Source: Methylovulum psychrotolerans
GTDB lineage: Bacteria; Pseudomonadota; Gammaproteobacteria; Methylococcales; Methylomonadaceae
NCBI RefSeq assembly: GCF_002923755.1
Contig: NZ_PGFZ01000006.1
Span: 188,230 to 234,694, forward strand
Direction of reading: 5' to 3'
Length of the DNA: 46,465 bases
Shown here one piece after another: positions 15,556 to 44,447 of this stretch. A model generated the notes under the pieces. The model had not been told where the DNA came from and did no database searches. It worked only from the letters and a program-made list of their open reading frames with translations. A program made the position numbers and the translations under genes. The first letter of the stretch is position 1, and the number at the start of each line of letters is the position of its first letter.

Positions 15556-15598
15556 AGCTTAACGGCAAGAATTGCTAAAGTCGGTTCGGTAGCGAACA
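15556..15598 (-). promoter_or_regulatory. Class II CRP-like promoter of the coiled-coil protein gene
   Basis: The operator core on the minus strand reads TGTTC-GCTACC-GAACC (15598-15583), a 5-6-5 dyad. The -10-like hexamer TAAGCT lies at 15561-15556, 29.5 bp from the dyad centre. That puts the operator at -41.5 and the predicted start near 15549. It belongs to the window-wide TGTRC-N6-GYACA family but has T/A at the variable position of each half-site. Confidence 0.6.
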
Positions 15599-15907
15599 CA
15601 GCGGGGTGAGGGTACTTTGGAGACGGCGGCATCCGACCAACGCGGCCACTTGGAAATCCTACTATGCATTGCTGAGGGTGCGGGGGGTTCTTAAAGTTTT
15701 CAATCTGTATTCCCCTAAGTGCGATAACGCACCGACTTCCTGCTTGTTTTCCTTTAATCTACCCGTCAACTTGTCTAAAGGCGTTTTTTTAGGCCTCGCT
15801 TGCTACAAGCCAACAGTAATAAACACCCCCTAACCAATAAATAAATAAGGTGTTAGCCACGCAATAGGCATTTTTGATGCGATTGGCGGCCTTTATTTTT
15901 ACAAGGC
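15599..15907. other. Gene-free stretch
   Basis: No convincing gene was found between the operator at 15583-15598 and the small membrane protein gene at 15914. One short open frame (15606-15833) has no family resemblance or ribosome-binding site. An A/T-rich segment near 15818-15850 may hold the promoter of the downstream gene. Confidence 0.5.
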
Positions 15908-15913
15908 ATGATG

Positions 15914-16141
15914 ATGCAAACAACAAATGAATTACCGCCTGAACATTGCCAAGCGGCGGCGTTAGTCAACAAAAAAGCCCGGCAGTTAAAAATCGCGGAG
16001 CGGCAGTTTATGGCAGATTGCCGGGACTATATTAACGACAACCCAGTCGCCACACTCAGCGTGGCGGTAGGGATGGGTTTTGTGTTAAGTCGGTTATTAA
16101 GCGCCCACCCAGCTACCACCCCGGTTGTCGGCACAAAATAG
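15914..16141 (+). CDS. YqjD/ElaB-like small membrane-anchored protein
   Basis: This is a 75-residue protein with a helical charged N-terminus and one C-terminal membrane helix, preceded by the DYINDNPVATLSVAVGMGFV motif. That motif resembles the glycine-rich C-terminal anchor of YqjD/ElaB/DUF883 proteins. Some family members bind ribosomes at the inner membrane in stationary phase; this one is only related by the anchor. Three ATGs follow one another (15908, 15911, 15914), and the third has the best spacing to AAGG (15903-15906). It lies at the head of a row of four stress-type genes. Confidence 0.7.
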   Translation: MQTTNELPPEHCQAAALVNKKARQLKIAERQFMADCRDYINDNPVATLSVAVGMGFVLSRLLSAHPATTPVVGTK

Positions 16142-16211
16142 CGCCTATTCGGGGATAACACGGTCATGGAAAACCTTCAACATGACCCAACCATCATTTA
16201 AGGAGAACACT

Positions 16212-16616
16212 ATGTCCAGACGCTTATTGCTGATGTTCACGTTAACCGGCAGTTTCCTGCTGGCAACAGGGATAGCACAGGCAGACCATGAGACCGCCGT
16301 TTATTTGGCGGCCGGGCCCGCATTAGATAATACCGAAACCAATGCCCGCGACAAGTCCGGCACCACCTTAACCCCGGAAGAACAAAAAGAGACGAAAACG
16401 GATATCCGCATTACGGCACATATCCGTAAGGCCGTGGTTAAAAACAAATGGCTGTCATTGGATGCCAAAAATGCAAAAATCATCACCCGCAATGGCGTGG
16501 TGACGTTGCGCGGGCCGGTAGCCAATGCGGCGGAAAGTGCCAAACTGCAAAAAATCGCCACACAAACACGGGGCGTAATGCAGGTAGATAACCAATTAGA
16601 CAATAAAGCGCCATAA
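16212..16616 (+). CDS. Exported BON-domain protein
   Basis: This 134-residue protein has a signal peptide (MSRRLLLMFTLTGSFLLATG, cleavage near AQA-D) and one BON domain (about 60-130). The domain shows the usual pattern: DIRITAHIRKAVVKN, then AKIITRNGVVTLRGPVANA, then VMQVDNQL. BON proteins (OsmY-like) sit in the periplasm and protect the envelope under osmotic or other stress. The ATG at 16212 is chosen because AAGGAGAAC lies eight bases before it; an upstream ATG at 16125 overlaps the previous gene and hides the signal peptide. Confidence 0.85.
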   Translation: MSRRLLLMFTLTGSFLLATGIAQADHETAVYLAAGPALDNTETNARDKSGTTLTPEEQKETKTDIRITAHIRKAVVKNKWLSLDAKNAKIITRNGVVTLRGPVANAAESAKLQKIATQTRGVMQVDNQLDNKAP

Positions 16617-16632
16617 AGGCCAGGAGAACGTC

Positions 16633-17154
16633 ATGACTAAAGCCGTATTTTGTATCGCCCAATCAATGGAGCAAGCAGAACTTATCGTCAACCACTTAAA
16701 AGGGGCTGATTTTTCCAATAACGACATCTCCGTGCTGTTCCCGGACAAATCCACCACCCAAGATTTTGCCCATGAAAAACACACTAAATCCCCCGAAGGC
16801 GGCGCCATTGGCGGTGCGCTGGGCTTAGGTGCGGGGGCGATATTTGGCTGGTTAGCCGGCATCGGCAGTTTGGCGATTCCGGGCTTAGGCCCATTTATCG
16901 CCGCCGGCCCGATCATGGGTGCTTTGAGCGGGGCGGCAGTGGGTGCGGCCACGGGTGGTTTGACCGGCGCATTAATCGGCCTGGGCATCCCCGAATATGA
17001 AGCCAAACGCTACGAGGGCAAAATCAGCAGTGGTAATGCCTTGATTTCAGTGCGGGCGACCACTAGCGAAGAGCGTGATGTCGCCAAAAAAATCTTCGAG
17101 CACGCCCACGCCGAAGACATTTCCGTCACGACTGAAGCCGCAGTCAGCGCTTAA
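16633..17154 (+). CDS. Glycine-rich general-stress-type membrane-associated protein
   Basis: This 173-residue protein has three parts. A small alpha/beta domain (1-50) begins TKAVFCIAQSMEQAE, as in the YflT/general stress protein 17M type. A long Gly/Ala-rich hydrophobic middle (about 57-118) looks like paired membrane helices. A C-terminal segment carries ALISVRATTSEERDVAKKIF. The layout is repeated in the gene at 29310-29855, so the two are likely distant paralogues. AGGAGAACGTC precedes the ATG. The molecular role is unknown; it is placed with stress proteins by neighbourhood and family resemblance. Confidence 0.7.
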   Translation: MTKAVFCIAQSMEQAELIVNHLKGADFSNNDISVLFPDKSTTQDFAHEKHTKSPEGGAIGGALGLGAGAIFGWLAGIGSLAIPGLGPFIAAGPIMGALSGAAVGAATGGLTGALIGLGIPEYEAKRYEGKISSGNALISVRATTSEERDVAKKIFEHAHAEDISVTTEAAVSA

Positions 17155-17210
17155 GCCAGATGATGCTGTTCCTCCATCTTACCAAGTTTTATCCACCACG
17201 GGGTTATGTT

Positions 17211-17645
17211 ATGCAACACATTAAAGATATTGAAAAATTGCTGAAAAATGAATTATCGGCCACAGAAACTTACCAACAAGCATTGGATACGTTGAAAGCC
17301 GATGTCGGCTTAGGCGAGTCGGAAGTGTTGATGCCGCTGCTCGAAGAACACAAAGAAGCCTTGGCCAGTTTACAGGCCCTTAACCAGCGTTTGGCAGGCG
17401 AGCCTACCGAAAGCTCAGGCGCTTGGGGAGCATGGGCAAAAATAGTCTTGGGCGGCGCCAATTGGTTAGGTAAAGAATCGGTCTTAAAAGCCTTGCTGGA
17501 AGGGGAAAAAAGCGGTGCGGATGATTATAAGTCTGCCTTGGAAGACACCGAACTGCTGGCAGATATTCGGGCGTTGATTGAAACCAAGTTACTGCCCGCC
17601 CAACACGCGCATATTGGGACATTGGAATTGTTGTTAGTTGCCTAA
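17211..17645 (+). CDS. DUF2383-type four-helix (ferritin-like) protein
   Basis: This 144-residue helical protein has the pattern IKDIEKLLKNELSATETYQQAL...EHKEAL...GAWGAWAKIVLGGANWLG...ALLEGEKSGADDYKSAL...AQHAHIGTL. It fits the PA2169/DUF2383 ferritin-like four-helix family. Glu and His residues spaced along the helices could bind metal, but no function is established. The ATG at 17211 is favoured over 17160 because homologues begin near the first helix; no strong ribosome-binding site is seen for either. It is the last gene before a 460-base gap. Confidence 0.72.
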   Translation: MQHIKDIEKLLKNELSATETYQQALDTLKADVGLGESEVLMPLLEEHKEALASLQALNQRLAGEPTESSGAWGAWAKIVLGGANWLGKESVLKALLEGEKSGADDYKSALEDTELLADIRALIETKLLPAQHAHIGTLELLLVA

Positions 17646-17773: not shown

Positions 17774-17823
17774 GGTATGTAAAGCCGTTGGATTGCCAGC
17801 CCGGCCATTTTTGCTTTTGCATC

Positions 17824-17866
17824 TGTGCGCTAGCGCACAGATGCAAGCGGGCTTTACTGTTAGTAT
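17824..17866 (+). promoter_or_regulatory. Perfect CRP-like operator with -10 element, upstream of the Crp/Fnr gene
   Basis: The operator core TGTGC-GCTAGC-GCACA (17824-17839) is the centre of a perfect 30-bp palindrome (17817-17846). A -10-like TAGTAT lies at 17861-17866, 29.5 bp from the centre, so the dyad would be at -41.5 and transcription would start near 17873. The next gene is the Crp/Fnr regulator at 18110, which implies a leader of about 237 bases. The most symmetrical copy of the family lies before a regulator of the right class, which suggests autoregulation. Confidence 0.6.
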
Positions 17867-18109: not shown

Positions 18110-18856
18110 ATGGCAGATAAGTTGTCCGCACAACATAACCCCAAACAGAACCATCTTCTTGCCGTGTTGCCGGAAGACGTACTTATGCGCCTTGCCCCGC
18201 AGCTGGAACTGGTTCCTATGCGCCTAGGGGATGTTATTTACGAGTATGCCGAACAATTGCAGCATGTCTATTTCCCCACCACAGCCATTGTTTCCCTGCA
18301 TTATGTGATGGAAAACGGCGCATCGGCGGAGATCGCCGGGGTCGGCAATGAAGGCATAGTCGGCATATCCCTGTTTATGGGCGGCAACACCACCCCCAGT
18401 TTGGCGACCGTCTATACGGGCGGCTTTGGCTATCGGCTTAAGGCGCGTCATCTGATGGAAGAATTCAACCGCACCGGGCCACTGATGCGGTTGTTACTGC
18501 GTTATACCCAAGCCCTGATGACGCAAATGTCCCAAACGGCAGTATGTAACCGCCACCATTCGGTAGAGCAGCAATTATGCCGCTGGCTGTTGTTGACGCT
18601 GGATAAATTGCCGTCTAACGAATTGACCATGACCCAAGAATTGATCGCCAGTATGCTGGGGGTACGCCGTGAGGGTATTACTGAAGCCGCCGGCAATCTG
18701 CAACGGGCCGCATTAATCAGTTACCGCCGGGGGCATATCACCGTGCTTGACCGGTCGGGGCTGGAATCGCGTACCTGCGAGTGTTATGACGTGGTCAAGA
18801 AAGAATTTTATCGTTTGCTGAGTGATACGGGCACAGCCAAACAATTTCCGAATTAA
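18110..18856 (+). CDS. Crp/Fnr-family transcriptional regulator
   Basis: This 248-residue regulator has an N-terminal cyclic-nucleotide-binding-like beta-roll (about 20-140) and a C-terminal winged helix-turn-helix (about 155-225). There is no Cys cluster of the FNR type and no obvious cAMP-binding Arg/Ser pocket pattern, so the signal is unknown. The recognition helix GVRREGITEAAGNLQR keeps the Arg-Glu pair equivalent to CRP R180/E181 but has Glu where CRP has R185, so a binding site different from TGTGA is expected. AAGGACAAGAGC precedes the ATG. It stands just upstream of a two-component block and downstream of the most perfect TGTRC-N6-GYACA site. Confidence 0.88.
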   Translation: MADKLSAQHNPKQNHLLAVLPEDVLMRLAPQLELVPMRLGDVIYEYAEQLQHVYFPTTAIVSLHYVMENGASAEIAGVGNEGIVGISLFMGGNTTPSLATVYTGGFGYRLKARHLMEEFNRTGPLMRLLLRYTQALMTQMSQTAVCNRHHSVEQQLCRWLLLTLDKLPSNELTMTQELIASMLGVRREGITEAAGNLQRAALISYRRGHITVLDRSGLESRTCECYDVVKKEFYRLLSDTGTAKQFPN

Positions 18857-18915: not shown

Positions 18916-18987
18916 ATGAACCCAAGCACCGCCCAGCTATTCTTAGCCCGCCTGATAGCGGCACGACATAGGGACACTTGCCCTTGA
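18916..18987 (+). CDS. Possible 23-residue leader peptide upstream of the hybrid kinase
   Basis: A short frame (ATG 18916, TGA 18985-18987) encodes 23 residues and has AAAGG eight bases before it. Its stop overlaps the start region of the kinase, where TTG at 18984 and TGA form TTGA. This looks like a translational-coupling arrangement, in which the weak TTG start of the kinase depends on translation of the short frame. No family resemblance is seen, so it may be only a coupling device or a chance frame. Confidence 0.4.
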   Translation: MNPSTAQLFLARLIAARHRDTCP

Positions 18988-21900
18988 AAACGTCCGCTAA
19001 GGCTTTGGTTTTTCTGGCGGGCGCGGTGCTGTCCGCCGTGCTGGTGACGACGCTGGCTTTCTGGGTATTTAAGCAAACTGAGGCGGCGGCGGCGGCAAGG
19101 GCGCATACCTATACTGTGATCAGCCACGCGAACGGTTTGTTATCGGAATTGAAAGATGCCGAAACCGGGCAGCGCGGCTATGTGCTGACGGGCGATGAAA
19201 CCTTTCTGGCACCTTATACGGCGGTACGCGGCCAAGTCGGGGGACATTTGCAAGAATTGCGGCAACTGATCTTGGGCGACAATGCTATGGCAACCCAACA
19301 ACATCTGACGACAATAGCGCCGTTGATAGAGGCCCAAATAGCCGAGTTGGCGCATGTTATTGAGTTGCGCCGCCATACCGGTATGGCGGCGGCGGTTACG
19401 GCGGTAGCCAGTGGCGAGGGTAAACGCTGGATGGATGCTATCCGTAGCGAAATGGGCGGCTTCATCAACAGCGAAGAAACCGCCTTAATGCAGCGCGAAG
19501 CCCAGTTTCAGGCTGCTATGCGCCGTTTATTCAGCATTATTATCTTCAGCAGCTTGATAATGGCGGTGTCGGCGACGGCGTTTGCTTACCTGATTTATCG
19601 GCAAACCCAACAGCGGCTTAAGCACGTCACGCATCTGCAAACCCAGCATTTTTTAAAGGTGCAGGAAAACGCGAATAAAGAGCTGGCGCAACTCAACGCC
19701 GTTTTACAAAGCAACGAGCAAAAACTTGCCGTTACCCTCAATTCCATTGGCGATGCCGTGATCGCCACCGATACCATGGCACGGATCACCCTGCTCAATC
19801 CGGTGGCGGAAAAGCTCACCGCTTGGACACAAGCCACCGCTATCGGCAGGCCTATCGACGAGGTGTTTCAAATCGTCAACAAAACCACCCGTTTGGCCGC
19901 GACCATTCCGGTCATGGCGGCCTTGGAGCATGGCACGGTGCAAGGTCTGGCCAACCATACGGTGCTGATTGCCCAAGACGGTAACGAATACGATATTGCC
20001 GACAGTTGCGCCCCAATCCGTGACCACGACCGCCAAGTGATCGGCGCGGTGTTGGTGTTCCGTGATGTCACCGCCGACTATGCCGTGCAACAAGCCTTAC
20101 ACGACAGTAACGCCTTGGTGCAGACCATCCTCAACACCGTGTTGGACGGTATCATCACGTTCCATGCCGAGGACGGCGGCATTGAAACCGTCAACCCTGC
20201 GGCCGAGCGCATTTTTGGCTATACTGCCGCCGAACTGATCGGCCAAAACTTTAGGGTATTACTGCCCGAATGGGCAAAAGAACAAAGCCGTATCTGCTTA
20301 AATGCCAACGGTGATAGGGCAAATAGCCGCATGGAGCCACAATACGAAAGCGTAGGCCAACACAAGGCGGGGGGATCGTTTCCGTTGGAAATTTCCTTGA
20401 GCGAAATGCAGTTGGATGGGCAGCGTTATTTTACCGGCATTCTGCGTGATTTGACCACCCGCAAGCAGGCGGAAGAAGAGCTGGTCAAAGCGGGGGCTTT
20501 ACAGACCGCCATTTTTAACAGCGCAAACTTCTCCAGTATCGCCACCGATGCCAAGGGTGTCATCCAGATTTTTAATGTCGGGGCGGAACGTATGTTGGGC
20601 TATGCCGCCGCCGACGTGATGAACAAAATCACCCCCGCCGACATTTCCGACCCGCAAGAGGTCATCGCCCGCGCCAAAGCCTTGAGCACCGAGTTGGAAA
20701 CCACGATCACGCCCGGTTTTGAGGCCCTGGTGTTCAAGGCCTCGCGCGGCATCGAAGACATTTACGAACTGACCTACATCCGCAAAGACGGCAGCCGCTT
20801 TCCGGCGGTGGTCTCGGTCACGGCCTTGCGCGATGCCCAAGAGGCCATTATCGGTTATCTGCTGATAGGCACTGACAACACCGCCCGCAAACAGGTTGAA
20901 GAGGAACAGAAAAAACTCGACCAGCGCTTGCGTGACCAACAGTTTTATACCCGTTCGCTGATCGAAGCCAATATCGATGCGATTATGACTACCGATCCGG
21001 CTGGCATCATCACCGATGTCAACAAGCAGATGGAAGCGCTCACCGACTGTACCCGTGACGAGCTGATTGGCGCACCGTTCAAAAACTTTTTCACCAACCC
21101 CGAACGCGCCGAAGCGGCCATTAATTTGGTGCTGAACGAAAAGAACGTCACCAATTACGAACTGACCGCGCGTACCCGCAATGGCAAAGAAACTGTGGTG
21201 TCCTACAATGCCACGACGTTTTATGACCGGGACCGTAACCTGCAAGGTGTGTTCGCGGCGGCGCGGGATGTGACTGAGCGCAAACTCCTCGACCACGCCT
21301 TACAGGAAACCAATATCGCCTTAGAGTTGGCCAAATCTGTCGCGGAAAAGGCCAATCTTGCCAAATCCGATTTTCTCTCCAGCATGAGCCATGAATTGCG
21401 CTCGCCGCTGAATGCCATTTTGGGTTTTGGGCAATTGATCGAAGCGGGCAAACCGTCACTGACGGACAGCCAAAAAGCCAGCATTGACCAAATTTTACAG
21501 GCCGGTTGGTATTTGCTGGAGTTGATTAACGAAATCCTGGATCTGGCCTTGATCGAATCGGGCAAAGTATTGATGTCGCCCGAACCGGTATCGTTGGCGG
21601 AGGTGCTGGGTGATTGCCAATTGATGATCGAGCCGCAAGCGCAAAAAAGCGGTATCCGTGTGACGTTCCCGCATTTTGACAGCCCCTGTTTTGTCAAAGC
21701 CGACCGGACACGGGTCAAGCAGATATTTATTAACTTATTGTCCAATGCCATCAAGTATAACCGCGTGGCGGGCGAAGTGGCGGTGAGCTATGAGGTCAAC
21801 GCGGCCCAGCGTGTCCGCATCAGTTTTCGCGATACCGGGCAAGGTTTGCCAGAAGAGAAAATCTTGCAACTGTTCCAGCCCTTTAACCGCTTAGGCCAGG

Positions 21901-22511
21901 AGAACGGTATTGAAGAAGGTACGGGGATTGGCTTGGTGGTCAGTAAGCGTTTGGTTGAACTGATGGGCGGCGATATTGGCGTGGTCAGCACGGTGGGCGT
22001 GGGCAGTATGTTTTGGGTGGAACTCAATGTCACGCCCGAACCGCACAGTGTCGACGGCGATAACGAACCTATGGCCATGGCCCAACCCCTATTGGCCGAT
22101 GACGCGCGGCTGTATACCGTGCTGTGTGTCGAAGACAACCCCGCCAACCTGTTGTTGATTGCGACCTTGCTGGCCAGCAGGCCGGACATCCGCTTACTGT
22201 CGGCACGCGACGGCAACCGGGGGGTTGATATTGCCCGGCACGCGCAACCGGATGTTATCCTGATGGACATTAACCTGCCCGGCATTAGCGGCATTATGGC
22301 GTTGGAAATCTTGTCGCAAGATCCGCTAACATCGTATATTCCGGTGATCGCGCTCAGCGCCAACGCTATGCCGCGTGATATTGCCAAAGGTTTGGAAGCC
22401 GGATTTTTCCGTTACCTGACCAAACCGATCCGGGTCAATGAATTTATGAACACCTTAGATTTGGCGTTGAAATTATCGAAGCCGCCGCTTCGGCGGATTA
22501 AAGTGGAATGA
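18978..22511 (+). CDS. CHASE3-PAS hybrid sensor histidine kinase
   Basis: This membrane sensor kinase has about 1,177 residues. The order is TM1 (8-31), a CHASE3 sensor domain with the signature DAETGQRGYVLTGDE (about 57-71), TM2 (185-208) and four PAS-like domains (about 245-370, 372-500, 508-640, 655-770). HisKA follows with phospho-accepting His 805 (SMSHELRSPLNAI). The ATPase domain shows NLLSNAIKYN, DTGQGLP and GTGIGLVVSK. The C-terminal receiver carries Asp 1097 (LMDINLPG). The start is TTG at 18978 or, with better spacing to AGGGA, TTG at 18984. From HisKA to the end it closely resembles the next gene, indicating duplication. It likely feeds a phosphorelay with the downstream REC proteins. 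Confidence 0.9.
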   Translation: MPLKTSAKALVFLAGAVLSAVLVTTLAFWVFKQTEAAAAARAHTYTVISHANGLLSELKDAETGQRGYVLTGDETFLAPYTAVRGQVGGHLQELRQLILGDNAMATQQHLTTIAPLIEAQIAELAHVIELRRHTGMAAAVTAVASGEGKRWMDAIRSEMGGFINSEETALMQREAQFQAAMRRLFSIIIFSSLIMAVSATAFAYLIYRQTQQRLKHVTHLQTQHFLKVQENANKELAQLNAVLQSNEQKLAVTLNSIGDAVIATDTMARITLLNPVAEKLTAWTQATAIGRPIDEVFQIVNKTTRLAATIPVMAALEHGTVQGLANHTVLIAQDGNEYDIADSCAPIRDHDRQVIGAVLVFRDVTADYAVQQALHDSNALVQTILNTVLDGIITFHAEDGGIETVNPAAERIFGYTAAELIGQNFRVLLPEWAKEQSRICLNANGDRANSRMEPQYESVGQHKAGGSFPLEISLSEMQLDGQRYFTGILRDLTTRKQAEEELVKAGALQTAIFNSANFSSIATDAKGVIQIFNVGAERMLGYAAADVMNKITPADISDPQEVIARAKALSTELETTITPGFEALVFKASRGIEDIYELTYIRKDGSRFPAVVSVTALRDAQEAIIGYLLIGTDNTARKQVEEEQKKLDQRLRDQQFYTRSLIEANIDAIMTTDPAGIITDVNKQMEALTDCTRDELIGAPFKNFFTNPERAEAAINLVLNEKNVTNYELTARTRNGKETVVSYNATTFYDRDRNLQGVFAAARDVTERKLLDHALQETNIALELAKSVAEKANLAKSDFLSSMSHELRSPLNAILGFGQLIEAGKPSLTDSQKASIDQILQAGWYLLELINEILDLALIESGKVLMSPEPVSLAEVLGDCQLMIEPQAQKSGIRVTFPHFDSPCFVKADRTRVKQIFINLLSNAIKYNRVAGEVAVSYEVNAAQRVRISFRDTGQGLPEEKILQLFQPFNRLGQENGIEEGTGIGLVVSKRLVELMGGDIGVVSTVGVGSMFWVELNVTPEPHSVDGDNEPMAMAQPLLADDARLYTVLCVEDNPANLLLIATLLASRPDIRLLSARDGNRGVDIARHAQPDVILMDINLPGISGIMALEILSQDPLTSYIPVIALSANAMPRDIAKGLEAGFFRYLTKPIRVNEFMNTLDLALKLSKPPLRRIKVE

Positions 22512-22590
22512 CTTGCCTGATGGTTAACCCTATGCTGTGGCTGCTGGCTAACATTAACCCATACCGTGCACCTGAACCTCTGTTGGCAAT

Positions 22591-25008
22591 ATGAAGAATA
22601 CACTCTGGCATATTTTGTTGGTTGAAGAAAATGATGATGACCGTGCCGAGCTTCGGCAAAAATTGGCCTCAGGCTCAGAACGCCGCTATCGGTTTACCGA
22701 AGCCAAACTTGGTGCCGAAGCTTTGCAAAAAGCCCATGATAAACCCGATGGGCCTTACGAATGCATTATCCTAAGCTATTACCTGCCGGATATGAACAGC
22801 GAGGAAATATTGGCTGTGTTGTGCGAGGGTACGGAGTTGCCGCCGTGTCCGGTCGTAGTGGTTATAGGGGCGGTTAAGGATAAAGGCCCGGCACTGCTCC
22901 GTGCCGGCGCACAAGATTATATCGGCAAGCACAGGATCACTCCCGAAAGCCTGACCCGGGCCGTGGAGAATTCCGTAGAACGTTTCGTGCTGTTACGCGA
23001 ACGGATGCACACCTTGCAAGCCCTGAAAGCCAGCGAGGAGCGGCTGGCCCTAGGTGTGCAAGTCGCCGGTTTAGGGCTTGCCGATATTGATTACACCACA
23101 GGGATGGCGCACCTTTCCGCCGAAGCGGCACAGATGTTTGGCTTCGGCAACGTAAAATTGACCTTGCCGCGTGCAGCAATACATGCCAGCTTCCACCCTG
23201 ATGACCGCGCCGATGTGATGCAGTGCATCGCCCATGCGCTGTCCCCTAGAGGGACAAGGACTTTCCTTATGGATCATCGGGTGGTATGGCCTAATGGCCA
23301 AGTGCGCTGGTTACGCGTACGCAAGCATATCCGCTTTGCCGGGGAAGGCAATTTTCAGCAGCCTCAGCACGCCACCTTAGTGGCTCTGGATGTCACGACC
23401 GAAAAAACCGCCGAGCAGGCTTTGCGCGACAGTGAGGAGCAATTCCGCGCCTTATTGGAAGCCGCCCCCGATGCCATTGTCATTGTCGATGAGCAAGGCC
23501 TGATTGTGCTGGTGAATGCCCTGACGATTTCACTGTTTGGCTACAGCCGCGCCGAACTGCTCGGCGAACCGGTAGAAATGCTCATGCCGTCCCGTTTCCG
23601 CCACCTGCACAGCAACTTGCGCGATGGTTATCTGACCGAGCCGCAACCGCGCGAAATGGATGGCGGCTTGAATTTGTTCGGCAAACGTAAGGATGGCAGC
23701 GAATTTCCGATTGAAGTTAGCCTCAGCCCGCTGGAAACCAAAAAAGGCCGCTTGGTGTCCAGCGCCATCCGCGATATTACCGAACGCAAGCGTATCGAAG
23801 CGGAACTGAACAAAGCCAAGGCGGCGGCAGAAAATGCCAACCGGGCAAAATCCGATTTTCTCTCCAGCATGAGCCATGAATTGCGTTCGCCACTGAATGC
23901 GATCCTCGGTTTTGCCCAGTTACTTGAGGCGGGTACGCCGCCGCTTACACCGCGCCAAAAGACCAGTATCGACCAGATTCTCCACGCCGGCTGGTATTTG
24001 TTGGAGCTCATCAATGAAATCCTTGACTTGGCGATGATCGAATCCGGCAAGATTTCCTTATCCTTGGAATCCATTTCCTTGAGTGATGTGCTGGACGATT
24101 GTCAGGCTATGATTGAACCGCAAGCGCAAACCAGCGGCATCAGCATGAGTTACCCGCCGTTTGATGACACTTGTATTGTGAATGCCGACCGGACACGGGT
24201 AAAGCAAGTGTTTCTTAACCTGTTGTCTAACGCCATCAAATATAACCGTGCCGGCGGCACGATTGCCGTTACCTATAGCCAAAACACAACGGAACGTATA
24301 CGCATCAGTGTCCATGACACCGGTGAAGGCCTGTCCGCCGACAAACTCGAACAACTGTTCCAGCCTTTCAACCGCCTAGGACAAGAGAACGGTCTTGAAG
24401 AAGGCACCGGTATCGGTTTGGTAGTCAGTAAACGGCTTATCGAACTGATGGGCGGCCATATCGGCGTGGAAAGTACGGTTGGCGTGGGCAGTGTCTTTTG
24501 GGTCGAACTGATCCGGCCAACGTTTTCCGGACCTGCGGTCATAGTGCCTTTGCCCGCCGAAGTGACGCTGCATGTTCAGGAGAACAAATTGCTGTTCACG
24601 CTGCTTTATGTGGAAGACAATCCGACCAACTTGTTGTTGGTCGAGCAAATTATCACCAACCATAAAAATATCAAAATGCTCAGCGCCAAGACAGGCCGGA
24701 TAGGCGTTACGCTTGCGCGTATCCATCATCCCGATATTATTCTGATGGACATTAATCTGCCGGGCATCAGCGGCATAGACACGTTAAATATTTTGCGTGA
24801 AGATCCGGCCACGGCGGATATTCCCGTGATCGCCCTGAGCGCCAATGCGATGCCGGGTGACATTCAGAGAGGCTTACAAGCCGGATTCTTCCGTTATCTG
24901 ACCAAACCGATCAAGATTAATGAGTTTATAAATGCCTTGGATGACGTACTGACATGCTCTGAAACAGGCTTGAGCGCTATCCATAAACCGGACAATGACC
25001 ATGATTAG
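22591..25008 (+). CDS. Cytoplasmic hybrid histidine kinase with degenerate N-terminal receiver
   Basis: This protein has 805 residues and no membrane segment. An N-terminal receiver-like domain (1-130, starting ILLVEENDDDR) has Ser 62 (IILSYYLPDMN) where the phospho-accepting Asp should be, so it is probably a pseudo-receiver. Two PAS domains (about 146-272 and 275-400), HisKA with His 429, the ATPase domain and a complete C-terminal receiver with Asp 720 follow. HisKA-ATPase-REC is nearly the same as in the upstream kinase, even at the nucleotide level around the His box. The gene begins 79 bases after the first kinase and overlaps the next gene, so the three are probably one unit. Confidence 0.9.
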   Translation: MKNTLWHILLVEENDDDRAELRQKLASGSERRYRFTEAKLGAEALQKAHDKPDGPYECIILSYYLPDMNSEEILAVLCEGTELPPCPVVVVIGAVKDKGPALLRAGAQDYIGKHRITPESLTRAVENSVERFVLLRERMHTLQALKASEERLALGVQVAGLGLADIDYTTGMAHLSAEAAQMFGFGNVKLTLPRAAIHASFHPDDRADVMQCIAHALSPRGTRTFLMDHRVVWPNGQVRWLRVRKHIRFAGEGNFQQPQHATLVALDVTTEKTAEQALRDSEEQFRALLEAAPDAIVIVDEQGLIVLVNALTISLFGYSRAELLGEPVEMLMPSRFRHLHSNLRDGYLTEPQPREMDGGLNLFGKRKDGSEFPIEVSLSPLETKKGRLVSSAIRDITERKRIEAELNKAKAAAENANRAKSDFLSSMSHELRSPLNAILGFAQLLEAGTPPLTPRQKTSIDQILHAGWYLLELINEILDLAMIESGKISLSLESISLSDVLDDCQAMIEPQAQTSGISMSYPPFDDTCIVNADRTRVKQVFLNLLSNAIKYNRAGGTIAVTYSQNTTERIRISVHDTGEGLSADKLEQLFQPFNRLGQENGLEEGTGIGLVVSKRLIELMGGHIGVESTVGVGSVFWVELIRPTFSGPAVIVPLPAEVTLHVQENKLLFTLLYVEDNPTNLLLVEQIITNHKNIKMLSAKTGRIGVTLARIHHPDIILMDINLPGISGIDTLNILREDPATADIPVIALSANAMPGDIQRGLQAGFFRYLTKPIKINEFINALDDVLTCSETGLSAIHKPDNDHD

Positions 25009-25843
25009 CACAGCAGAAATCCTTAATTCCAGTATCTTGATAGTTGATGACCAGTTATCCAATGTGCTGTTGCTTGAACAGATGTTGGAAGGTGCGGGTT
25101 ATACCTGTATCGCCTCGACTACCGACCCCACCAAAGTCTGCGGGCTCTATCAGAAAAACCGTTACGACCTGATCCTGTTGGATTTGCAAATGCCGGGCAT
25201 GGATGGCTTTCAGGTGATGGAAGGGCTTAAACGCATCGAAACGGATGGTTATTTGCCGATTTTAGTGATCACGGCCCAACCTAACCATAAATTGCGGGCG
25301 CTCACGGTGGGCGCGAAAGATTTTGTCAGCAAACCGTTTGATCTCATTGAAGTGCAAAACCGCATCCGTAATATGCTGGAAGTGCGGCTGTTGTATAAAA
25401 ATCTTGAATATTATAACCAATCTTTGGAACAAATAGTCGCGGAACGCACCATTGAGCTGTCGGCCAGTGAAGAGCGTTTCCGCCGCTTAACCGAGCTGTC
25501 ATCAGATTGGTATTGGGAGCAGGACGCAAACGGGCAATTCACTATGGTTTACGGGCCGGTGCATGAAATGCTGGGCATTCGGATTAATAATGACGTATTG
25601 GATAATGTCGAAGAGCAAGGCATCATCTGGGACGAAGCCGAACGCCTGGTTTTGGAAACCAATTTGGCGGCCCGGAAACCGTTCCTGGATTTTGTCTACA
25701 GCAGGAACAAACCTAACGGTCAGCGGCAATATTTGATGGTGAGCGGGGAACCGGTGTTCGATCCGTCGGGACGCTTTATCGGCTATCGGGGCATCGGCAA
25801 AGATGTGACCGAAACCATGCGTCCGGGCAACATAACGCCTTAA
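24995..25843 (+). CDS. Response regulator with REC and PAS domains
   Basis: This 282-residue protein has a complete receiver (about 14-130; SILIVDDQ, phospho-acceptor Asp 63 in LILLDLQMPGMDG, Lys in VSKPFD), a short coiled linker (about 135-160) and one PAS domain (about 162-275, SSDWYWEQDANGQF). No DNA-binding or enzymatic output domain is present, so it may be a relay intermediate or act through protein contacts. The start overlaps the kinase stop by 14 bases; a second in-frame ATG at 25001 also overlaps. It is likely the partner of the two upstream kinases. Confidence 0.85.
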   Translation: MTMISTAEILNSSILIVDDQLSNVLLLEQMLEGAGYTCIASTTDPTKVCGLYQKNRYDLILLDLQMPGMDGFQVMEGLKRIETDGYLPILVITAQPNHKLRALTVGAKDFVSKPFDLIEVQNRIRNMLEVRLLYKNLEYYNQSLEQIVAERTIELSASEERFRRLTELSSDWYWEQDANGQFTMVYGPVHEMLGIRINNDVLDNVEEQGIIWDEAERLVLETNLAARKPFLDFVYSRNKPNGQRQYLMVSGEPVFDPSGRFIGYRGIGKDVTETMRPGNITP

Positions 25844-26009: not shown

Positions 26010-26951
26010 ATGACGTATAAAGATTATTATCAAATCATGGGCCTAGCGCGTGATGCCACGCAAGACGACATCAAGCGGGCCTACCGTAAACTGGCCCGCA
26101 AATACCATCCCGATGTCAGCAAGGAGGCGGATGCCGAGGCACAATTCAAAGCCTTGGGCGAAGCCTATGAGGTGCTTAAAGACGTTGAAAAACGCGCGGC
26201 TTACGATCAGCTCGGTGCAAACTGGCAAGCAGGCCAAGATTTTAAGCCGCCGCCCCATTGGGATGAAGGTTTTGAATTTGGCGGTGCGGCAGGATCTGGC
26301 GACTCAGCGCATTTTAGCGACTTTTTTTCCCAGATTTTTGGCCAAGGCGGTTTCCGTTCTGACGATGCAAGGTCAAACCGTCCTGAACAAGGGCAAGACA
26401 GCCACGCGAAAATCTATATTGATCTGGAGGACAGTTTCCAAGGCGCCACACGGGCCATTTCCTTAAGCACCCCGACCAGCAATGCCCAGGGCCAAGTGCA
26501 GCTTAAACACCGCAGCCTGAATGTCAAAATCCCTAAAGGCATTAAGCCGGGGCAGCATATCAAACTGGCCGGCCAAGGCCATGCGGGGTTCGGTAACGGC
26601 CCGGCGGGCGATTTGATCTTGGCGGTGGAATTTAATCCGCATCCGCTGTACCGCCTCGTTGAAGCACACATTTATCTGGACCTTCCTATCAGCCCCTGGG
26701 AAGCGGCGTTGGGTGCGAAAATCAAAGTGCCGACGCCGGACGGGCTGGTGGATTTAAAAGTGCCGCCCAATTCCAAGCAAGGCGGCAAATTACGGTTGCC
26801 GGGACGCGGCATACCCGGCAAACCGCCTGGGGATTTCTTTGTCGTCCTGCAAGTTGTCTTGCCGCCCGCCCTAACCGATGCGGAAAAAGCCGCTTACCAG
26901 CATTTGCAACAAGCGTTTGATTTTAACCCCCGCCAGACCATGGGAGTGTAA
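26010..26951 (+). CDS. cbpA: Curved-DNA-binding co-chaperone CbpA (DnaJ-like)
   Basis: This 313-residue DnaJ-class co-chaperone has an N-terminal J domain (about 4-70) with the HPD motif at residues 33-35, which stimulates DnaK. A Gly/Phe-containing linker (about 75-120) and two C-terminal substrate-binding beta domains (about 130-300) follow. There is no zinc finger, so it is CbpA-type rather than DnaJ. The ATG at 26010 has AGGA nine bases upstream; the longer frame begins at a TTG. The cbpM gene follows six bases later, confirming the assignment. Confidence 0.93.
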
Positions 26952-28124: not shown

Positions 28125-28167
28125 TGTACCCCAGCGTACAGAATTTTTACCGCTAGGGGCGGATCAT
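28125..28167 (+). promoter_or_regulatory. CRP-like promoter upstream of exported protein gene
   Basis: The operator core is TGTAC-CCCAGC-GTACA (28125-28140). At the class II position the hexamer is GATCAT (28162-28167), which keeps four of six consensus bases, so the -10 is weaker than at the other sites. The predicted start is near 28174, with a leader of 29 bases before 28203. Confidence 0.5.
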
Positions 28168-28202: not shown

Positions 28203-28574
28203 ATGAAACTTTTTCTGGGCGCGGCACTACTCGCCGTCACCACCTTGCTGACCTGCACTACCGAAGCCGCCTCTATCAGGGTCGGCGAGTCCGGCTTCTA
28301 TGGGCGGCTTAATGTCGGCGGTTATCCGCCGCCGCAGGTCTATTATCGCCAACCGGTAGCTGCCCAATTTGTGCCCAGCAACCGCCCGCCCATTTATCTG
28401 CGTGTCCGGCCAGGCCACGCCCGGCAATGGCGGCGCTATTGTAGCCAATACAACGCCTGTAATGAACGGGTCTATTTCGTCAAACATGACTGGTATCAGC
28501 GCGAATATGCCCCACGTTACCAAAAATTTAACCGTGGCAACCACATAGCTTATCCGCCCGGCCAGCGGCGTTGA
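28203..28574 (+). CDS. Exported protein of unknown function
   Basis: This 123-residue protein has a signal peptide (MKLFLGAALLAVTTLLTCTT, cleavage near TEA-A). The mature part is Tyr/Pro/Arg-rich, with PPIYLRVRPGHARQWRRYC, CNERVYFVKHDWYQ and two Cys flanking YSQYNA, which could form a disulphide. Similar small exported proteins are common in beta- and gammaproteobacteria without assigned function. AAGGATATGTA precedes the start. A CRP-like promoter lies immediately upstream. Confidence 0.8.
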   Translation: MKLFLGAALLAVTTLLTCTTEAASIRVGESGFYGRLNVGGYPPPQVYYRQPVAAQFVPSNRPPIYLRVRPGHARQWRRYCSQYNACNERVYFVKHDWYQREYAPRYQKFNRGNHIAYPPGQRR

Positions 28575-31204: not shown

Positions 31205-31726
31205 GGATAGCTTAACCAATGGGATAAAATAAGTTTCTGCCACAGATACTTACAAGAAGTGAGTCCGGCCATTTTTTGAAAAACATCTTCTTTACCGTTA
31301 CGGGCCAGTGCTGGGTAAAGCGAAGCGTTTTCCGCCTTTAAGCCGTTACAACCCCACCATAAATTCGCACCCGCCCAACGGATGCCGCTTGATTTCCGTC
31401 CGGCTTTAGCCCAATATAAAGGGCGGCTGTTGCCGTTTATCCTGACACGAATTGCCCACCAACGCTTACTTGGCTGGCGTTCCGCTTGCGGCTATCGCCG
31501 ATTTTCGCGGCTGGCAACTGACGGAGATAAAGCGACCAGTGGGCAAGTGCAGCAACATTAACGGAGGTAGATACGAAATCTTTCATCACTTATCGTTCAA
31601 ATGTCAAAATCGGCCCGCCGTTTTACCCGCGTTTTCCGCACAAGCAGCACCCGCCAACAGTCGGTGCCGTAATCCCGTCGCGCCTTAAAATCGCGGCGGC
31701 TTGAAATCAACCACAAAACACCCCCT
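31205..31726. other. Gene-free stretch before phoU
   Basis: No convincing gene was found. A frame at 31452-31688 (+) has no family resemblance and no ribosome-binding site. No Pho box was recognised with confidence upstream of phoU. Confidence 0.5.
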
Positions 31727-32440
31727 ATGGACGACAGCAAAATACGCCAACATATATCCCGGCAGTTTAATACGGAACTCGAAGAAATACGCCATAAGGT
31801 ACTGGTAATGGGAGGATTGGTTGAGCAGCAATTGGCCTTAGCTATCCAAGCGTTCACCACGAACGATATGGAAACCGCCGAACTGGTCATGAGACGGGAT
31901 AACCTGATCAATGATATGGAGGTAGAAATTGATTTGGAATGCACGCAGATCATCGCCTTGAGGCAACCCACCGCATTTGATTTGCGGTTGCTGCTGACGG
32001 TCATCAAAATTATCAGCGAGTTGGAAATCGCCGGCGACCATGCGGAACGGATCGCCAAAGTGGCTATCAAGTTATCTGATACAGAAGGCAAGCATGACCA
32101 ATACCACGAAATCCTGCACATGGCCGAATTGGTCAAAAAGATGCTTAACGGGGCGTTGGACGCTTTTGCCAGAATGTCCATAGACGGCATCACCGTGATT
32201 ACAGCCATGGACGAAAAGGTCGACCTTGAATATGCCGGCATTGTCAGGCAATGGGTCACCCACATGATGGAAGACCCGCGCAACATTACCCGAACTTTAC
32301 ACAGCCTATGGGCAGTCCGGGCATTGGAACGCATTGGCGACCACGCCTGTTACCTTTGCGAACACCTGATTTTTATGGTCAAAGGCGAAGCCGTCAGGCA
32401 TTTGAGCCAACAGGAACTGGAAGAAAAGTTAAACGCCTAA
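31727..32440 (+). CDS. phoU: Phosphate-signalling protein PhoU
   Basis: This 237-residue protein is made of two three-helix PhoU repeats. The metal-binding signatures are ELEIAGDHAERIA (about 95-107) in the first repeat and ALERIGDHACYLCEHL (about 200-215) in the second. PhoU damps the PhoR/PhoB response and controls the PstSCAB transporter, and its loss raises polyphosphate in many bacteria. No pst or phoBR gene is adjacent, so it is a stand-alone copy. The ATG at 31727 lacks an obvious ribosome-binding site. Confidence 0.93.
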   Translation: MDDSKIRQHISRQFNTELEEIRHKVLVMGGLVEQQLALAIQAFTTNDMETAELVMRRDNLINDMEVEIDLECTQIIALRQPTAFDLRLLLTVIKIISELEIAGDHAERIAKVAIKLSDTEGKHDQYHEILHMAELVKKMLNGALDAFARMSIDGITVITAMDEKVDLEYAGIVRQWVTHMMEDPRNITRTLHSLWAVRALERIGDHACYLCEHLIFMVKGEAVRHLSQQELEEKLNA

Positions 32441-37024: not shown

Positions 37025-38101
37025 ATGCTGATAAAAAAGAAAATTCCATTACCTACTTCACTGATTGTCACTCAATCGAATCAGTTGGTTGAGGCCAGAT
37101 ATAATTTGCCGCTAGCTGAGCAACGTTTGATTTTGACGATGATCTCTAGGATTCAGCCTGATGATGAGGATTTCAAGCCGTATTGCATCAGTGTTGGCGA
37201 GCTTGCCGAGTTTTTGGGGGTCGATAAGGCTTCGGCCTATAGGGAATGTAAAAAAACCACTGAAAATTTATTGAAGCGGGTTGTCAATATTGATGAAACG
37301 GATGGTTTGCTGCAAATTGGTTGGGTCTCGTCAGCCAAATATGTTGATGGTTCAGGAGAGGTCAACCTGAGTTTTGACCCTTTATTAAAACCTTATTTGT
37401 TAAAGCTTAAAGGCAATTTTACGTCGAGTAAATTGGAGATGTTATTGAGCTTTAAAAGCCAATACACCATCAGGATTTATACGTTATTGAAGCAATATGA
37501 AAAGTTGAAGGAAAGGGAATTTGACTTGGAATTTTTGCGGGAGGTTTTGGGGCTTAGGCCTGACCAATATCAGTTGTATGCCGATTTTAAGCGCTTTATT
37601 TTGGTGGCTGTGCAAAAAGAATTGACGCAAAAATCTGACCTTTATTTCAATTTTGAAGAAATTAAGGGTGGCCGCCGTGTGACAGCGATCCGCTTGCTCA
37701 TTTTGACGCATGAGGCCGTGATTATGAACCCGGCGGATAAGGATAACGGGGAGGGGGCTTTGCCGCCGCTTGATGGCTTACTTAGCTTAATTCCTGAACA
37801 GCACCGTTCAAAGAAGACAGTGCTGTCTTCCGTGGCGGCATACGAAAAAAAGCAAGGCTATGATTACGTTAAAAGAAATATATTGTACAGTAACGGTAAG
37901 GCGGATAAGTCTTATGCGGGTTTTTTAGTCAATGCCCTGAAAGAAGACTGGGGGCATGATTGGGAATTGGAGCAACAGGCAGCCCCGGCGGTTAAGAAAA
38001 AAATGACCGTTTGGGAGCGTCAAGGTTTTAAGAGCGAAAAAGACTATGATGCATTTATGTACCGTAAGCAGATGGAGAGCTACCAAACGGCCAGAAAATG
38101 A
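37025..38101 (+). CDS. Rep_3-family plasmid replication initiator
   Basis: This initiator of about 358 residues has the RepB/Rep_3 pattern. The N-terminal part reads LIVTQSNQLVEARYNLPLAEQRLILTMIS, followed by the two winged-helix domains (ISVGELAEFLGVDKASAYRECKKTTENLLKR and LEMLLSFKSQYTIRIYTLLKQYEKL). A C-terminal region of about 120 residues follows the core. It binds iterons to open the origin. The ATG at 37025 is preferred to a TTG at 36998, though neither has a clear ribosome-binding site. Codon use is more A/T-rich than in the neighbours, consistent with a plasmid backbone of separate origin. Confidence 0.9.
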   Translation: MLIKKKIPLPTSLIVTQSNQLVEARYNLPLAEQRLILTMISRIQPDDEDFKPYCISVGELAEFLGVDKASAYRECKKTTENLLKRVVNIDETDGLLQIGWVSSAKYVDGSGEVNLSFDPLLKPYLLKLKGNFTSSKLEMLLSFKSQYTIRIYTLLKQYEKLKEREFDLEFLREVLGLRPDQYQLYADFKRFILVAVQKELTQKSDLYFNFEEIKGGRRVTAIRLLILTHEAVIMNPADKDNGEGALPPLDGLLSLIPEQHRSKKTVLSSVAAYEKKQGYDYVKRNILYSNGKADKSYAGFLVNALKEDWGHDWELEQQAAPAVKKKMTVWERQGFKSEKDYDAFMYRKQMESYQTARK

Positions 38102-42976: not shown

Positions 42977-43396
42977 CTATTTTTTGTCGGCCCCTTTGGG
43001 CATGGCATCAGGCATCATTGCGTCTTTGCCCATTTGGACGTGCTGCATCAGCATGTCTTCCATTTTTGCTTTACGCGCATCCATCGCGATGCGCTGCTCA
43101 ATCATGCGCGTGACCAAAGCCGCCAGCAGGCCGACTTTTTTCGCATCCGGCGCAGTGTTCATTTTGGCAAGCAGTTCGGTGAGCTCGGTGTCTTGGACTT
43201 TTATATCATCAAGCAGCTTTTGTTTCTGCGCCTGCATGGCTTGGCAATGCTCCATCATTTTAGGTTCTGGGGTAGCGTTTGACCCAGTAACGGCGGCCGT
43301 TTCGGCTTGGGCGGTCGAGAAAATAATGATGGCTAGCGCTAAAGCGAAGCACGAACCGACGATAAGGTGGGTGGTGGTGCTGGCAGATGTTTTCAT
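42977..43396 (-). CDS. Small exported helical protein
   Basis: This 139-residue protein has a signal peptide (about 1-31, ending STAQA-E). The mature part is helical and Met/Lys/Glu-rich: MMEHCQAMQAQKQKLLDDI, then LAKMNTAPDAKKVGLLAALVTRMIEQR, then MEDMLMQHVQMG. It resembles Spy/CpxP-type or other small periplasmic helical proteins only loosely. The ATG at 43396 (GGAAAAACTT upstream) is preferred to a TTG at 43414. A CRP-like promoter lies at 43482-43525, giving a leader of about 79 bases. Confidence 0.75.
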   Translation of the reverse strand: MKTSASTTTHLIVGSCFALALAIIIFSTAQAETAAVTGSNATPEPKMMEHCQAMQAQKQKLLDDIKVQDTELTELLAKMNTAPDAKKVGLLAALVTRMIEQRIAMDARKAKMEDMLMQHVQMGKDAMMPDAMPKGADKK

Positions 43397-43481: not shown

Positions 43482-43525
43482 AGCTTAGCGAAAAACCTCC
43501 GGCGGTGTCGGTACGCTGGCGTACA
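43482..43525 (-). promoter_or_regulatory. Class II CRP-like promoter of the exported helical protein gene
   Basis: On the minus strand the operator reads TGTAC-GCCAGC-GTACC (43525-43510). The -10-like TAAGCT lies at 43487-43482, 30.5 bp from the dyad centre, the same hexamer as at 15561-15556. The predicted start is near 43475. Confidence 0.58.
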
Positions 43526-43623
43526 TAAATACCGTTTGTGACCGCCATAAGGACAGTGTAAATAAATGTTGTCTAAGCGGCGCCGCCTTAGGTTATTGGA
43601 CGGGGCGAAGAAAAAACGCGCTC

Positions 43624-43666
43624 TGTGTGTTGCCGTACCGAACAGGGCCAGTTTTAGCTGTAATGT
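43624..43666 (+). promoter_or_regulatory. Class II CRP-like promoter of the first CsbD gene
   Basis: The operator is TGTGT-GTTGCC-GTACC (43624-43639), with -10-like TAATGT at 43661-43666, 29.5 bp from the centre. The predicted start is near 43673 and the leader 78 bases. The centre GTTGCC is the same as at the second CsbD promoter. Confidence 0.6.
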
Positions 43667-43750
43667 GTGCAACCAAGCGGTGGGGAAACTATCCGGCGCT
43701 TAGGCTTATGGCAATGTCGCCATGACAGGACCAATTATCGGGAGCTAGTG

Positions 43751-43927
43751 ATGAATAAAGAACAAGTGAAAGGCCGGGTCGAAGAAACCAAAGGCAAAGT
43801 CAAGGAAGCGGTTGGCGTGGTACTGGACAATGAGTCAATGGAAGAGGAAGGCAAGCTGCAAAAAAATATCGGTAAAGTCAAGTCCGGTCTCGGCGACCTG
43901 AAAGAAGACCTTAAAAACAGCATCTGA
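43751..43927 (+). CDS. CsbD-family stress protein
   Basis: This 58-residue protein has the CsbD pattern MNKEQVKGRVEETKGKVKEA, then EEEGKLQKNIGKVKSGLGDLKEDLK. It is highly charged, soluble and probably disordered or helical. CsbD-like proteins are induced by general stress in many bacteria; the molecular role is unknown. GGAGCTAGTG precedes the ATG. The SmbP-like gene follows 64 bases later and is probably cotranscribed. Confidence 0.9.
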   Translation: MNKEQVKGRVEETKGKVKEAVGVVLDNESMEEEGKLQKNIGKVKSGLGDLKEDLKNSI

Positions 43928-43991
43928 TCCGGCATAGCGCCGCCATTTTCAGATATGACCGCAAGCCAACCGTTTTATACAGGAAATAATA

Positions 43992-44309
43992 ATGAAAAAT
44001 AACACCATGAAAATAGCCGCCTTATGCTTAGGCATTAGCTTAGCAGGCGCTTCATTTGCCACTTATGCTGCCGAAAGCCATATCGCGGAAGCGATTAAGC
44101 ACGCAGAAGCGGCGGCCAAAGCCACCGATGGCAAAACCATCACCGAACATGCGGAAACCGCCAAGACCCATGCCAGTGCCGCCAGCGAGCATTTGACTGC
44201 GGGCATTAAAAGCCTGAATGATGCGATTGACCACGGCAAAATGGGTCACGCCGAGTTAGCGAAAAAATCCACCGAAGAAGCCGTCAGCCATTTAAAAGAC
44301 GCGCAATAA
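43992..44309 (+). CDS. SmbP-like small exported metal-binding protein
   Basis: This 105-residue protein has a signal peptide (about 1-26, ending TYA-AE). The mature part is an Ala/Lys/Glu helix with His at regular spacing (SHIAEAIKHAEAAAK, ITEHAETAKTHASAASEHL, DHGKMGHAELAKKS, VSHLKDA). The pattern matches SmbP, a periplasmic copper/nickel-binding four-helix protein described from Nitrosomonas. ACAGGAAATAATA precedes the start. It lies between two CsbD-like genes. Confidence 0.82.
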   Translation: MKNNTMKIAALCLGISLAGASFATYAAESHIAEAIKHAEAAAKATDGKTITEHAETAKTHASAASEHLTAGIKSLNDAIDHGKMGHAELAKKSTEEAVSHLKDAQ

Positions 44310-44404
44310 TACGCTACAGCCAATACGGCGGGCATAGTATAGCCCGCCGTTTTATGCGCTTAGCTAAGCATTCAACATTCTTCCCTACCTAAATATTTTC
44401 CCTA

Positions 44405-44447
44405 TGTACGTTGCCGCACCGACACTGTTCAGGTTTGTTGGTATCCT
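44405..44447 (+). promoter_or_regulatory. Class II CRP-like promoter of the second CsbD-like gene
   Basis: The operator is TGTAC-GTTGCC-GCACC (44405-44420), with -10-like TATCCT at 44442-44447, 29.5 bp from the centre. The predicted start is near 44454, with a leader of 58 bases. Confidence 0.62.

Follow-up and report, generated by a model that had tools for sequence, protein, structure and literature searches.

A putative class II regulon of a CRP/FNR-superfamily regulator, marked by a recurrent 16-bp dyad, in Methylovulum psychrotolerans

The stretch of DNA analysed here (the window) comprises 46,465 nucleotides of Methylovulum psychrotolerans and is part of the 306,074-base contig NZ_PGFZ01000006.1 (contig C56) of a genome of 5.19 Mb. 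It contains nine modules in which a 16-bp dyad of the type TGTRC-N6-GYACA is followed at a nearly fixed distance by a -10-like hexamer, together with the gene of a CRP/FNR-superfamily regulator (18110-18856) that is the proposed reader of the dyads (Table 1). A preliminary description of this DNA had reported seven dyads in front of small stress genes. All seven were read back from the sequence, six of them exactly where they had been placed; the fourth had been given a start at 31189 and its in-register 16-mer lies one base on, at 31190-31205. The seven -10 hexamers named there all stand at 29.5 or 30.5 bp from the dyad centre when the direction of the gene is considered. The number of modules had been set too low, as a matrix scan yielded exactly nine in the window, with dyads at 15718 and 28621 added to the seven, and about 26 on the contig. 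Leaders of 78-79 bases had also been pointed out; these are true distances in the window and not a conserved property, the median being 120 over 155 relative sites with a -10, so that this length is a coincidence.

The genes next to the dyads are given in Table 1. In the gene run 15911-17645 the BON protein scored above its Pfam cut-off, and the DUF883_C-like, DUF1269-like and DUF2383-like proteins scored below theirs. The direction of the dyad at 31190-31205 is uncertain. A CsbD gene 74% identical to that at 43751-43927 is likewise preceded by a site in another genome (G089). No matrix site scoring at least 13 was found directly before the entericidin-type lipoprotein gene 45554-45703(+) or the DnaJ-type chaperone gene 26010-26951(+).

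Table 1. Dyad modules and principal genes of the window, in window coordinates; distances run from the dyad centre to the -10 hexamer.
Feature	Position	Strand	-10 hexamer (position)	Distance (bp)	Matrix score	Neighbours and remarks
Alternate F1F0 ATPase subunit genes (F0 B, alpha, gamma)	480-3707	+				
GH94 protein, 2893 aa	5906-14587	-				
Dyad GGTTCGGTAGCGAACA	15583-15598	-	TAAGCT (15561-15556, minus)	29.5	18.6	faces gene 15184-15471(-), perhaps onward to the GH94 giant gene
Dyad AGTGCGATAACGCACC	15718-15733	+	TAATCT (15755-15760)	29.5	20.6	faces DUF883_C-like gene 15911-16141, then gene run to 17645 (BON, DUF1269-like, DUF2383-like)
Dyad TGTGCGCTAGCGCACA	17824-17839	+	TAGTAT (17861-17866)	29.5	30.4	upstream of CRP/FNR-superfamily regulator gene 18110-18856(+)
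CRP/FNR-superfamily regulator, 248 aa	18110-18856	+				proposed reader of the dyads
CHASE3-PAS hybrid histidine kinase	18978-22511	+				downstream of regulator
PAS hybrid kinase	22591-25008	+				downstream of regulator
Receiver-PAS protein	25001-25843	+				downstream of regulator
Dyad TGTACCCCAGCGTACA	28125-28140	+	GATCAT, -10-like (28162-28167)	29.5	21.9	before small protein gene 28203-28574, no Pfam match
Dyad TGTATGGCAACGAACA	28621-28636	+	GATAAT (28658-28663)	29.5	20.8	before protein called 28842-29144 (ORF from 28797), no Pfam match
Dyad TGTACGCTAACGCACG	31190-31205	- (uncertain)	TATAGT, best (31167-31162, minus)	30.5	24.7 (plus direction), 25.2 (minus direction)	leftward: lipoprotein-like ORF (by eye) and DUF1003 gene; rightward: PhoU-domain gene 31727-32440
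Dyad GGTACGCTGGCGTACA	43510-43525	-	TAAGCT (43487-43482, minus)	30.5	24.4	faces small gene 42977-43396(-), no Pfam match
Dyad TGTGTGTTGCCGTACC	43624-43639	+	TAATGT (43661-43666)	29.5	16.1	before CsbD gene 43751-43927, then SMBP-type gene 43992-44309
Dyad TGTACGTTGCCGCACC	44405-44420	+	TATCCT (44442-44447)	29.5	20.6	before CsbD-like gene 44512-44691

The dyad recurs in the neighbourhood of related regulators. In the genome collection 461 stretches encode a relative of the regulator; the 80 best of them served as loci (72-93% identity; methanotrophs, Gallionella and Sideroxydans types, Oxalobacteraceae and others), which total 1.23 Mb and are 21% intergenic by our own gene calls. It was found that exact matches to TGTRCGNNNNCGYACA in these loci numbered 48 between genes and none within genes; where one mismatch was allowed, the counts were 112 and 8. 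The reversed pattern and six permuted versions of the dyad served as controls: none had an exact intergenic match, and their exact genic matches numbered 0-27; with one mismatch they gave 0-14 intergenic and 2-95 genic. One permuted dyad, TGRTCGNNNNCGAYCA, accounts for the 27 exact matches, all genic, which probably reflect a conserved coding stretch. In the preliminary description a dyad as frequent inside genes as between them was to count as refutation; in these loci the exact form was confined to intergenic DNA. When 80 sites in relatives were oriented by their genes, a -10 (at least four of the six letters of TATAAT) stood at 29.5 bp in 47 of them, compared with 0-16 at the other offsets from 9.5 to 59.5, and TAnnnT stood there in 37, compared with 0-5 elsewhere. 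Once similar spacers had been removed, 42 of 72 sites had a -10 there and 4 of 72 had one on the mirror side. The relatives thus lend independent support to the class II CRP/FNR geometry proposed for the window. With the gene at the right, the consensus reads T-A-TGTRCG-N-YA-N-CGYACA-G-A; the left half has GTG in 64% and GTA in 21% of cases, and the adjacent C is nearly fixed.

A motif of this kind could instead be a repeat element or a chance palindrome between genes, such as an intergenic mobile repeat, a terminator or an attachment site. It is palindromic, intergenic and regionally clustered, and the loose consensus TGTRC-N6-GYACA with up to two mismatches gives 18 intergenic and 24 genic matches in the window, of which 19.5% is intergenic. 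Against this, conservation falls beyond the dyad and two flanking bases and reappears only at the -10, the spacers are mostly unrelated (72 of 80 were kept as non-redundant), and 210 of the 250 matrix places in relatives lie before a gene in their better-scoring direction, a direction chosen partly by the -10 score. A repeat or chance origin is therefore considered highly improbable.

It should be noted that the loose consensus alone is a weak test in the window, and genome-wide TGTRCGNNNNCGYACA with up to two mismatches is no commoner than its reversed control (391 vs 472 matches). A palindrome of low specificity is dismissed because of the matrix, the controls and the co-occurrence with the regulator, and not because of the loose consensus. 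The matrix was built only from relatives' sites, with a threshold score of 13 and genes called by a simple script of our own. Applied to contig C56 it returned 26 places, 24 upstream of a gene, two between convergent genes and none within a gene, and 25 of them lie between 81 and 271 kb; twenty column-permuted matrices returned 0-6 places each, 24 in total, three of them intergenic. A -10 scoring above 3 at 29.5 bp was present in the chosen direction at 21 of the 26 places. The direction of a site in the matrix scans of relatives and contig was chosen partly by the -10 score; free of this are the 80-site offset test, the 72-site mirror test and a check of the 11 contig places that could be oriented by neighbouring genes alone, where the -10 stood at 29.5 bp downstream in 10 and on the mirror side in one. 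A sequence model of dyad, spacer and -10, run over the whole genome at E<=10, gave 29 rows (26 places), 21 of them on contig C56, which makes up 5.9% of the genome, and sites outside it on contigs C45, C12 and C1; 150 of 883 candidates were scored here, and 150 of 621-1474 per genome elsewhere. Exact dyad matches in the whole genome number three, all on contig C56. A genome scan with a matrix from the seven sites had been suggested earlier; the matrix used here was drawn from relatives, and its places on the contig are intergenic, most of them with the -10 at 29.5 bp.

The protein encoded at 18110-18856 has a C-terminal Crp-type helix-turn-helix (HTH_Crp_2, 51.7 bits against a cut-off of 27), preceded by an N-terminal cyclic-nucleotide-binding-like beta-roll and a long dimer helix. 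The most perfect site on the contig (matrix score 30.4) is the one upstream of its gene, and matrix sites precede the regulator also in loci L017, L018, L019, L020 and L026. An alignment of regulator upstream regions was of limited use, as in L019 a second dyad, which faces a divergent CsbD gene, was placed in the column of the site. The first cysteine of the protein is C146; C146, C223 and C225 (the last two in a C-terminal C-E-C-Y) are invariant in all 79 close and all 11 more distant sequences. The cAMP-contacting GE...RS motif was not seen in a comparison by eye with the CRP motif: residues 82-99 read GIVGISLFMGGNTTPSLA, and most relatives end in PSRA. In CRP, R180-E181 and R185 contact the DNA. 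By eye alignment of the recognition helix the arginine and glutamate of R180-E181 are kept and the R185 position is a glutamate; the kept pair would fit the preference for GTG over GTA, and the glutamate may go with the replacement of A by C as the next base. The kinase and receiver genes downstream (18978-25843) are possible signalling partners of the regulator. In many cases the regulator gene is paired in tandem with a paralogue of about 40% identity, as at G048:C138:49325-50930, G025:C88:8787-10381 and G120:C95:14017-15938, and such tandems also occur on Variovorax and Acidovorax plasmids.

Dyad and regulator go together across genomes. Among 121 genomes of the family, the exact dyad TGTRCGNYANCGYACA was found in 42 of the 53 that carry the regulator (E<=1e-30) and in 3 of the 68 that do not (p = 1e-18); among family genomes of at least 3.5 Mb the figures were 37 of 45 and 1 of 20. 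In 299 genomes of the phylum the exact dyad occurred in 12 of 23 with the regulator and in 25 of 276 without it (p = 1e-6). Sites before the regulator are present also in loci of other families and classes; among 29 phylum-wide loci (53-77% identity, including a second copy in this genome), 14 have a site no more than 600 bp upstream of a regulator gene. In 18 regulator genomes with four contigs or fewer, 57 of the 99 top-ranking model matches lie within 25 kb of the regulator, where 2.2 were expected (101 rows at E<=0.01 represent 99 places, and one regulator place of genome G110 is a broken copy). Clustering within 50 kb is strong in G061 (7/7), G084 (8/8), G107 (5/5) and G110 (16/23); the majority of the genomes tested show clustering near the regulator, though some do not. 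The sites, their spacing, their co-occurrence with the regulator, their regional clustering and the fold of the protein are direct observations.

Several observations weigh against assigning the dyads to this regulator. The exact dyad is lacking in 11 of the 53 regulator genomes of the family (three of these, G024, G027 and G078, each have model matches) and is present in three of the 68 regulator-free ones. A site stands directly upstream in only 42 of the 79 regulator genes with enough upstream DNA among the 80 loci. Clustering within 50 kb is weak or absent in G028 (0/4), G139 (0/2), G053 (1/5), G074 (1/5) and G290 (1/4). The second copy of the regulator in this genome (contig C1, 60% identity) has no site nearby, and no site was found in 16.8 kb around the regulator of a Methylomagnum plasmid. 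The sites could also be shared with, or belong to, the paralogues of about 40% identity. It could accordingly be that the dyads belong to another regulator of the same islands, either the second CRP paralogue or a response regulator, and that the 18110-18856 protein merely travels along. Paralogues frequently lie side by side, and genes for response regulators and PAS proteins are plentiful in the loci (Response_reg in 16 of 137 sampled non-target genes). On the other side, 64 of the 76 site-bearing loci have no second called CRP gene (the loci span at most about 20 kb, and a paralogue may lie elsewhere), the spacing is that of class II promoters of the CRP family, sites precede the regulator in the loci from other families and classes, and the best site of the contig stands upstream of the regulator. 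Ownership by another regulator is for these reasons held to be unlikely.

We favour the reading, with a probability of about 0.86, that the dyads are putative operators of the 18110-18856 protein and define a class II regulon in which envelope and stress genes abound, the regulator belonging to an uncharacterised subfamily of the CRP type. Binding of the sites by this protein, activation of the promoters through that binding and a role of the regulon in stress are the parts that we infer. In class II activation, as established for CRP and, for NtcA, described in PMC3898017, the dimer covers the -35 region and touches the polymerase. Here a regulator dimer would sit on the near-palindrome TATGTRCG-N-YA-N-CGYACAGA, with its centre some 41.5 bp before the start in place of a -35 element, and would assist RNA polymerase at a -10 whose distance from the dyad centre is 29.5 bp or, in some cases, 30.5 bp. 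The regulator has a site before its own gene as well, and the regulon would take in BON, CsbD, DUF883-like, DUF4398, catalase, alternate ATPase and, in relatives, ice-binding genes, much of it packed near the regulator. CRP/FNR proteins can repress too, and the dyads could be repressor sites at which a protein near -41.5 blocks the polymerase until stress relieves the block. Of the 14 distant regulator genes that bear a site, 8 have it facing the other way only, three both ways and three towards the regulator; autoregulation in such distant loci may be negative or absent, which also counts against activation by the regulator as proposed. The single fixed register to the -10 in the direction of the gene is what a polymerase-contacting activator needs, and a repressor site would be freer to move. 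Repression is judged unlikely, and activation by the 18110-18856 protein remains the preferred reading.

The predicted targets include the small stress genes reported earlier, CsbD among them, and extend beyond these to a catalase, an alternate F1F0 ATPase and the regulator's own gene. On contig C56 sites precede genes for CsbD proteins, a BON protein, DUF883_C-like proteins (under the Pfam cut-off), DUF4398, DUF2171 and OmpA, and further for a large catalase, a glucose/sorbosone-dehydrogenase-type protein, a squalene-hopene cyclase, a YdbH-like protein and a TPP enzyme. A site with the -10 TATAAT lies left of the window, at contig position 184597, before an ATP-synthase-family gene that adjoins the alternate F1F0 ATPase subunit genes; the gene and these subunit genes probably form one operon. 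Pfam families were counted in relatives in two sets of 137 genes, one drawn from the 147 non-CRP targets (those no longer than 700 aa) and one from the 737 other genes in these loci. BON, ice-binding and DUF4398 families are clearly enriched among the targets: ice-binding 15 against 2, DUF4398 14 against 3, and BON 16 against at most 2, BON being outside the 25 families listed for the controls. CsbD (4) and DUF883_C (5) compare with at most 2 each in the controls, and DUF5670 stands at 5 against 3. Response regulators number 5 among targets and 16 among controls. Glycine zipper is not enriched (6 against 4 of 137), and neither is OmpA (8 against 6), the latter being a point against the favoured reading. 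In G089, a genome of the same genus, four of six sites within 60 kb precede relatives of genes that bear a site in the present genome (OmpA, DUF883-like, CsbD and the regulator).

The regulator is also present on mobile elements. Relatives of 54-69% identity on plasmids comprise 58 records at E<=1e-40, of which 20 are listed. The GH94 protein of the window is of the cyclic beta-glucan synthase type, and a giant of the GH94 or glucoamylase family adjoins the regulator or lies close to it in three of the five annotated plasmid neighbourhoods (pKLC102, p22B1P2 and pACDW039_1). Matrix sites scoring at least 13 occur on four of the five plasmid stretches (5, 1, 0, 2 and 2 places, the zero being the Methylomagnum plasmid). 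Those of pKLC102 (L130, a Pseudomonas aeruginosa element) lie at 5118, 5177, 7177, 11315 and 11372, in the gap that separates the GH94 gene from its neighbour and close to hypothetical and fatty-acid-desaturase genes. Contig C56 itself may be, or contain, a large plasmid. It carries two Rep3-type plasmid replication initiators (window 37106-38101(+) and contig 235292-235720), and ARAGORN found one doubtful tRNA in its 306 kb. An island defined by GC content or gene density was rejected, as the contig in 20-kb steps has no sharp boundary (GC 0.49-0.58). Runs of ten N border the window exactly (contig 188220-188229 and 234695-234704), the window being one piece of a gapped scaffold. A wider reading is put forward tentatively, as somewhat less than an even chance: a widespread mobile general-stress system of Proteobacteria beside sigma-S, in which one CRP-type activator, with its invariant thiols as a possible redox or metal switch, would travel on plasmids and islands together with its promoters and control a local regulon whose sites cluster round it and which would include ice-binding, BON/CsbD/DUF883 and cyclic-glucan-synthase genes.

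A regulator with hundreds of relatives, annotated only as 'Crp/Fnr family transcriptional regulator' in the five plasmid neighbourhood records, thereby gains a predicted operator, a promoter geometry and a list of targets. The targets belong to families that commonly appear in lists of stress proteins without an assigned role (CsbD, BON, DUF883 and DUF4398), joined in relatives by ice-binding proteins, and what switches the genes of these four families on becomes directly testable in culturable hosts. That sites crowd near the regulator in many genomes, and that it is found on plasmids, raises the question whether a regulon of this type moves as a unit.

The analysis supports a CRP/FNR-superfamily regulon with an operator for which searches of an open-access library gave no description. 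They gave none of the regulon either; subscription papers lay outside the search, so that unpublished status is unproven. CsbD, BON, ice-binding and Crp are absent from the main text of a paper on thermal acclimation in Methylobacter (PMC10030640). A low-oxygen-activated locus of Burkholderia holds, according to the available text of its description, stress genes including BON and universal stress proteins (PMC6127331); it was rejected as the same system, its regulator BCAM0049 being Anr/FixK-like and the word 'motif' being absent from the main text of that source. The RpoS (sigma-S) regulon shares gene types with the present one, namely CsbD/YjbJ, OsmY-type BON, DUF883-like, large catalase and entericidin. 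In E. coli those gene types have links to sigma-S. The promoters described here differ in carrying the putative operator of a DNA-bound regulator. A lack of RpoS was rejected as the reason for the system, since RpoS scores above its family cut-off here and in 97 of 121 family genomes.

FNR, Anr and FixK share the CRP/FNR fold with the regulator. The FNR-type dyad is TTGAT-N4-ATCAA, unlike the dyad found here, and an FNR-type regulator was rejected, as the N-terminal cysteines for a 4Fe-4S cluster are missing and the first cysteine is C146. E. coli CRP has the same fold as well, and its site is a 16-bp dyad with TGT...ACA arms, an N6 spacer and a fixed -10 register at class II promoters. The arms differ, being TGTRC here and TGTGA in CRP, as does the R185 position, which is a glutamate by eye alignment. 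The preliminary description knew of no named regulon with this consensus; the nearest named one known, to be taken as an analogue only, is that of NtcA. NtcA, the cyanobacterial global nitrogen regulator, is a CRP-family activator whose consensus GTAN8TAC is centred at about -41.5, according to PMC3898017. The TGTAC-N6-GTACA form of the dyad contains GTA-N8-TAC, and NtcA is the best solved-structure match of the regulator by profile (5.5e-10), followed by the Crp/Fnr protein 3dv8 (8.5e-10). It differs in that the present dyads prefer GTG to GTA, only part of the sites having GTA/TAC, and in that the targets are stress and envelope rather than nitrogen genes in a host that is not a cyanobacterium. 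The regulator was rejected as an NtcA orthologue, with an NCBIfam NtcA score of 23.2 against a cut-off of 244.95, and NtcA would stand as its nearest analogue.

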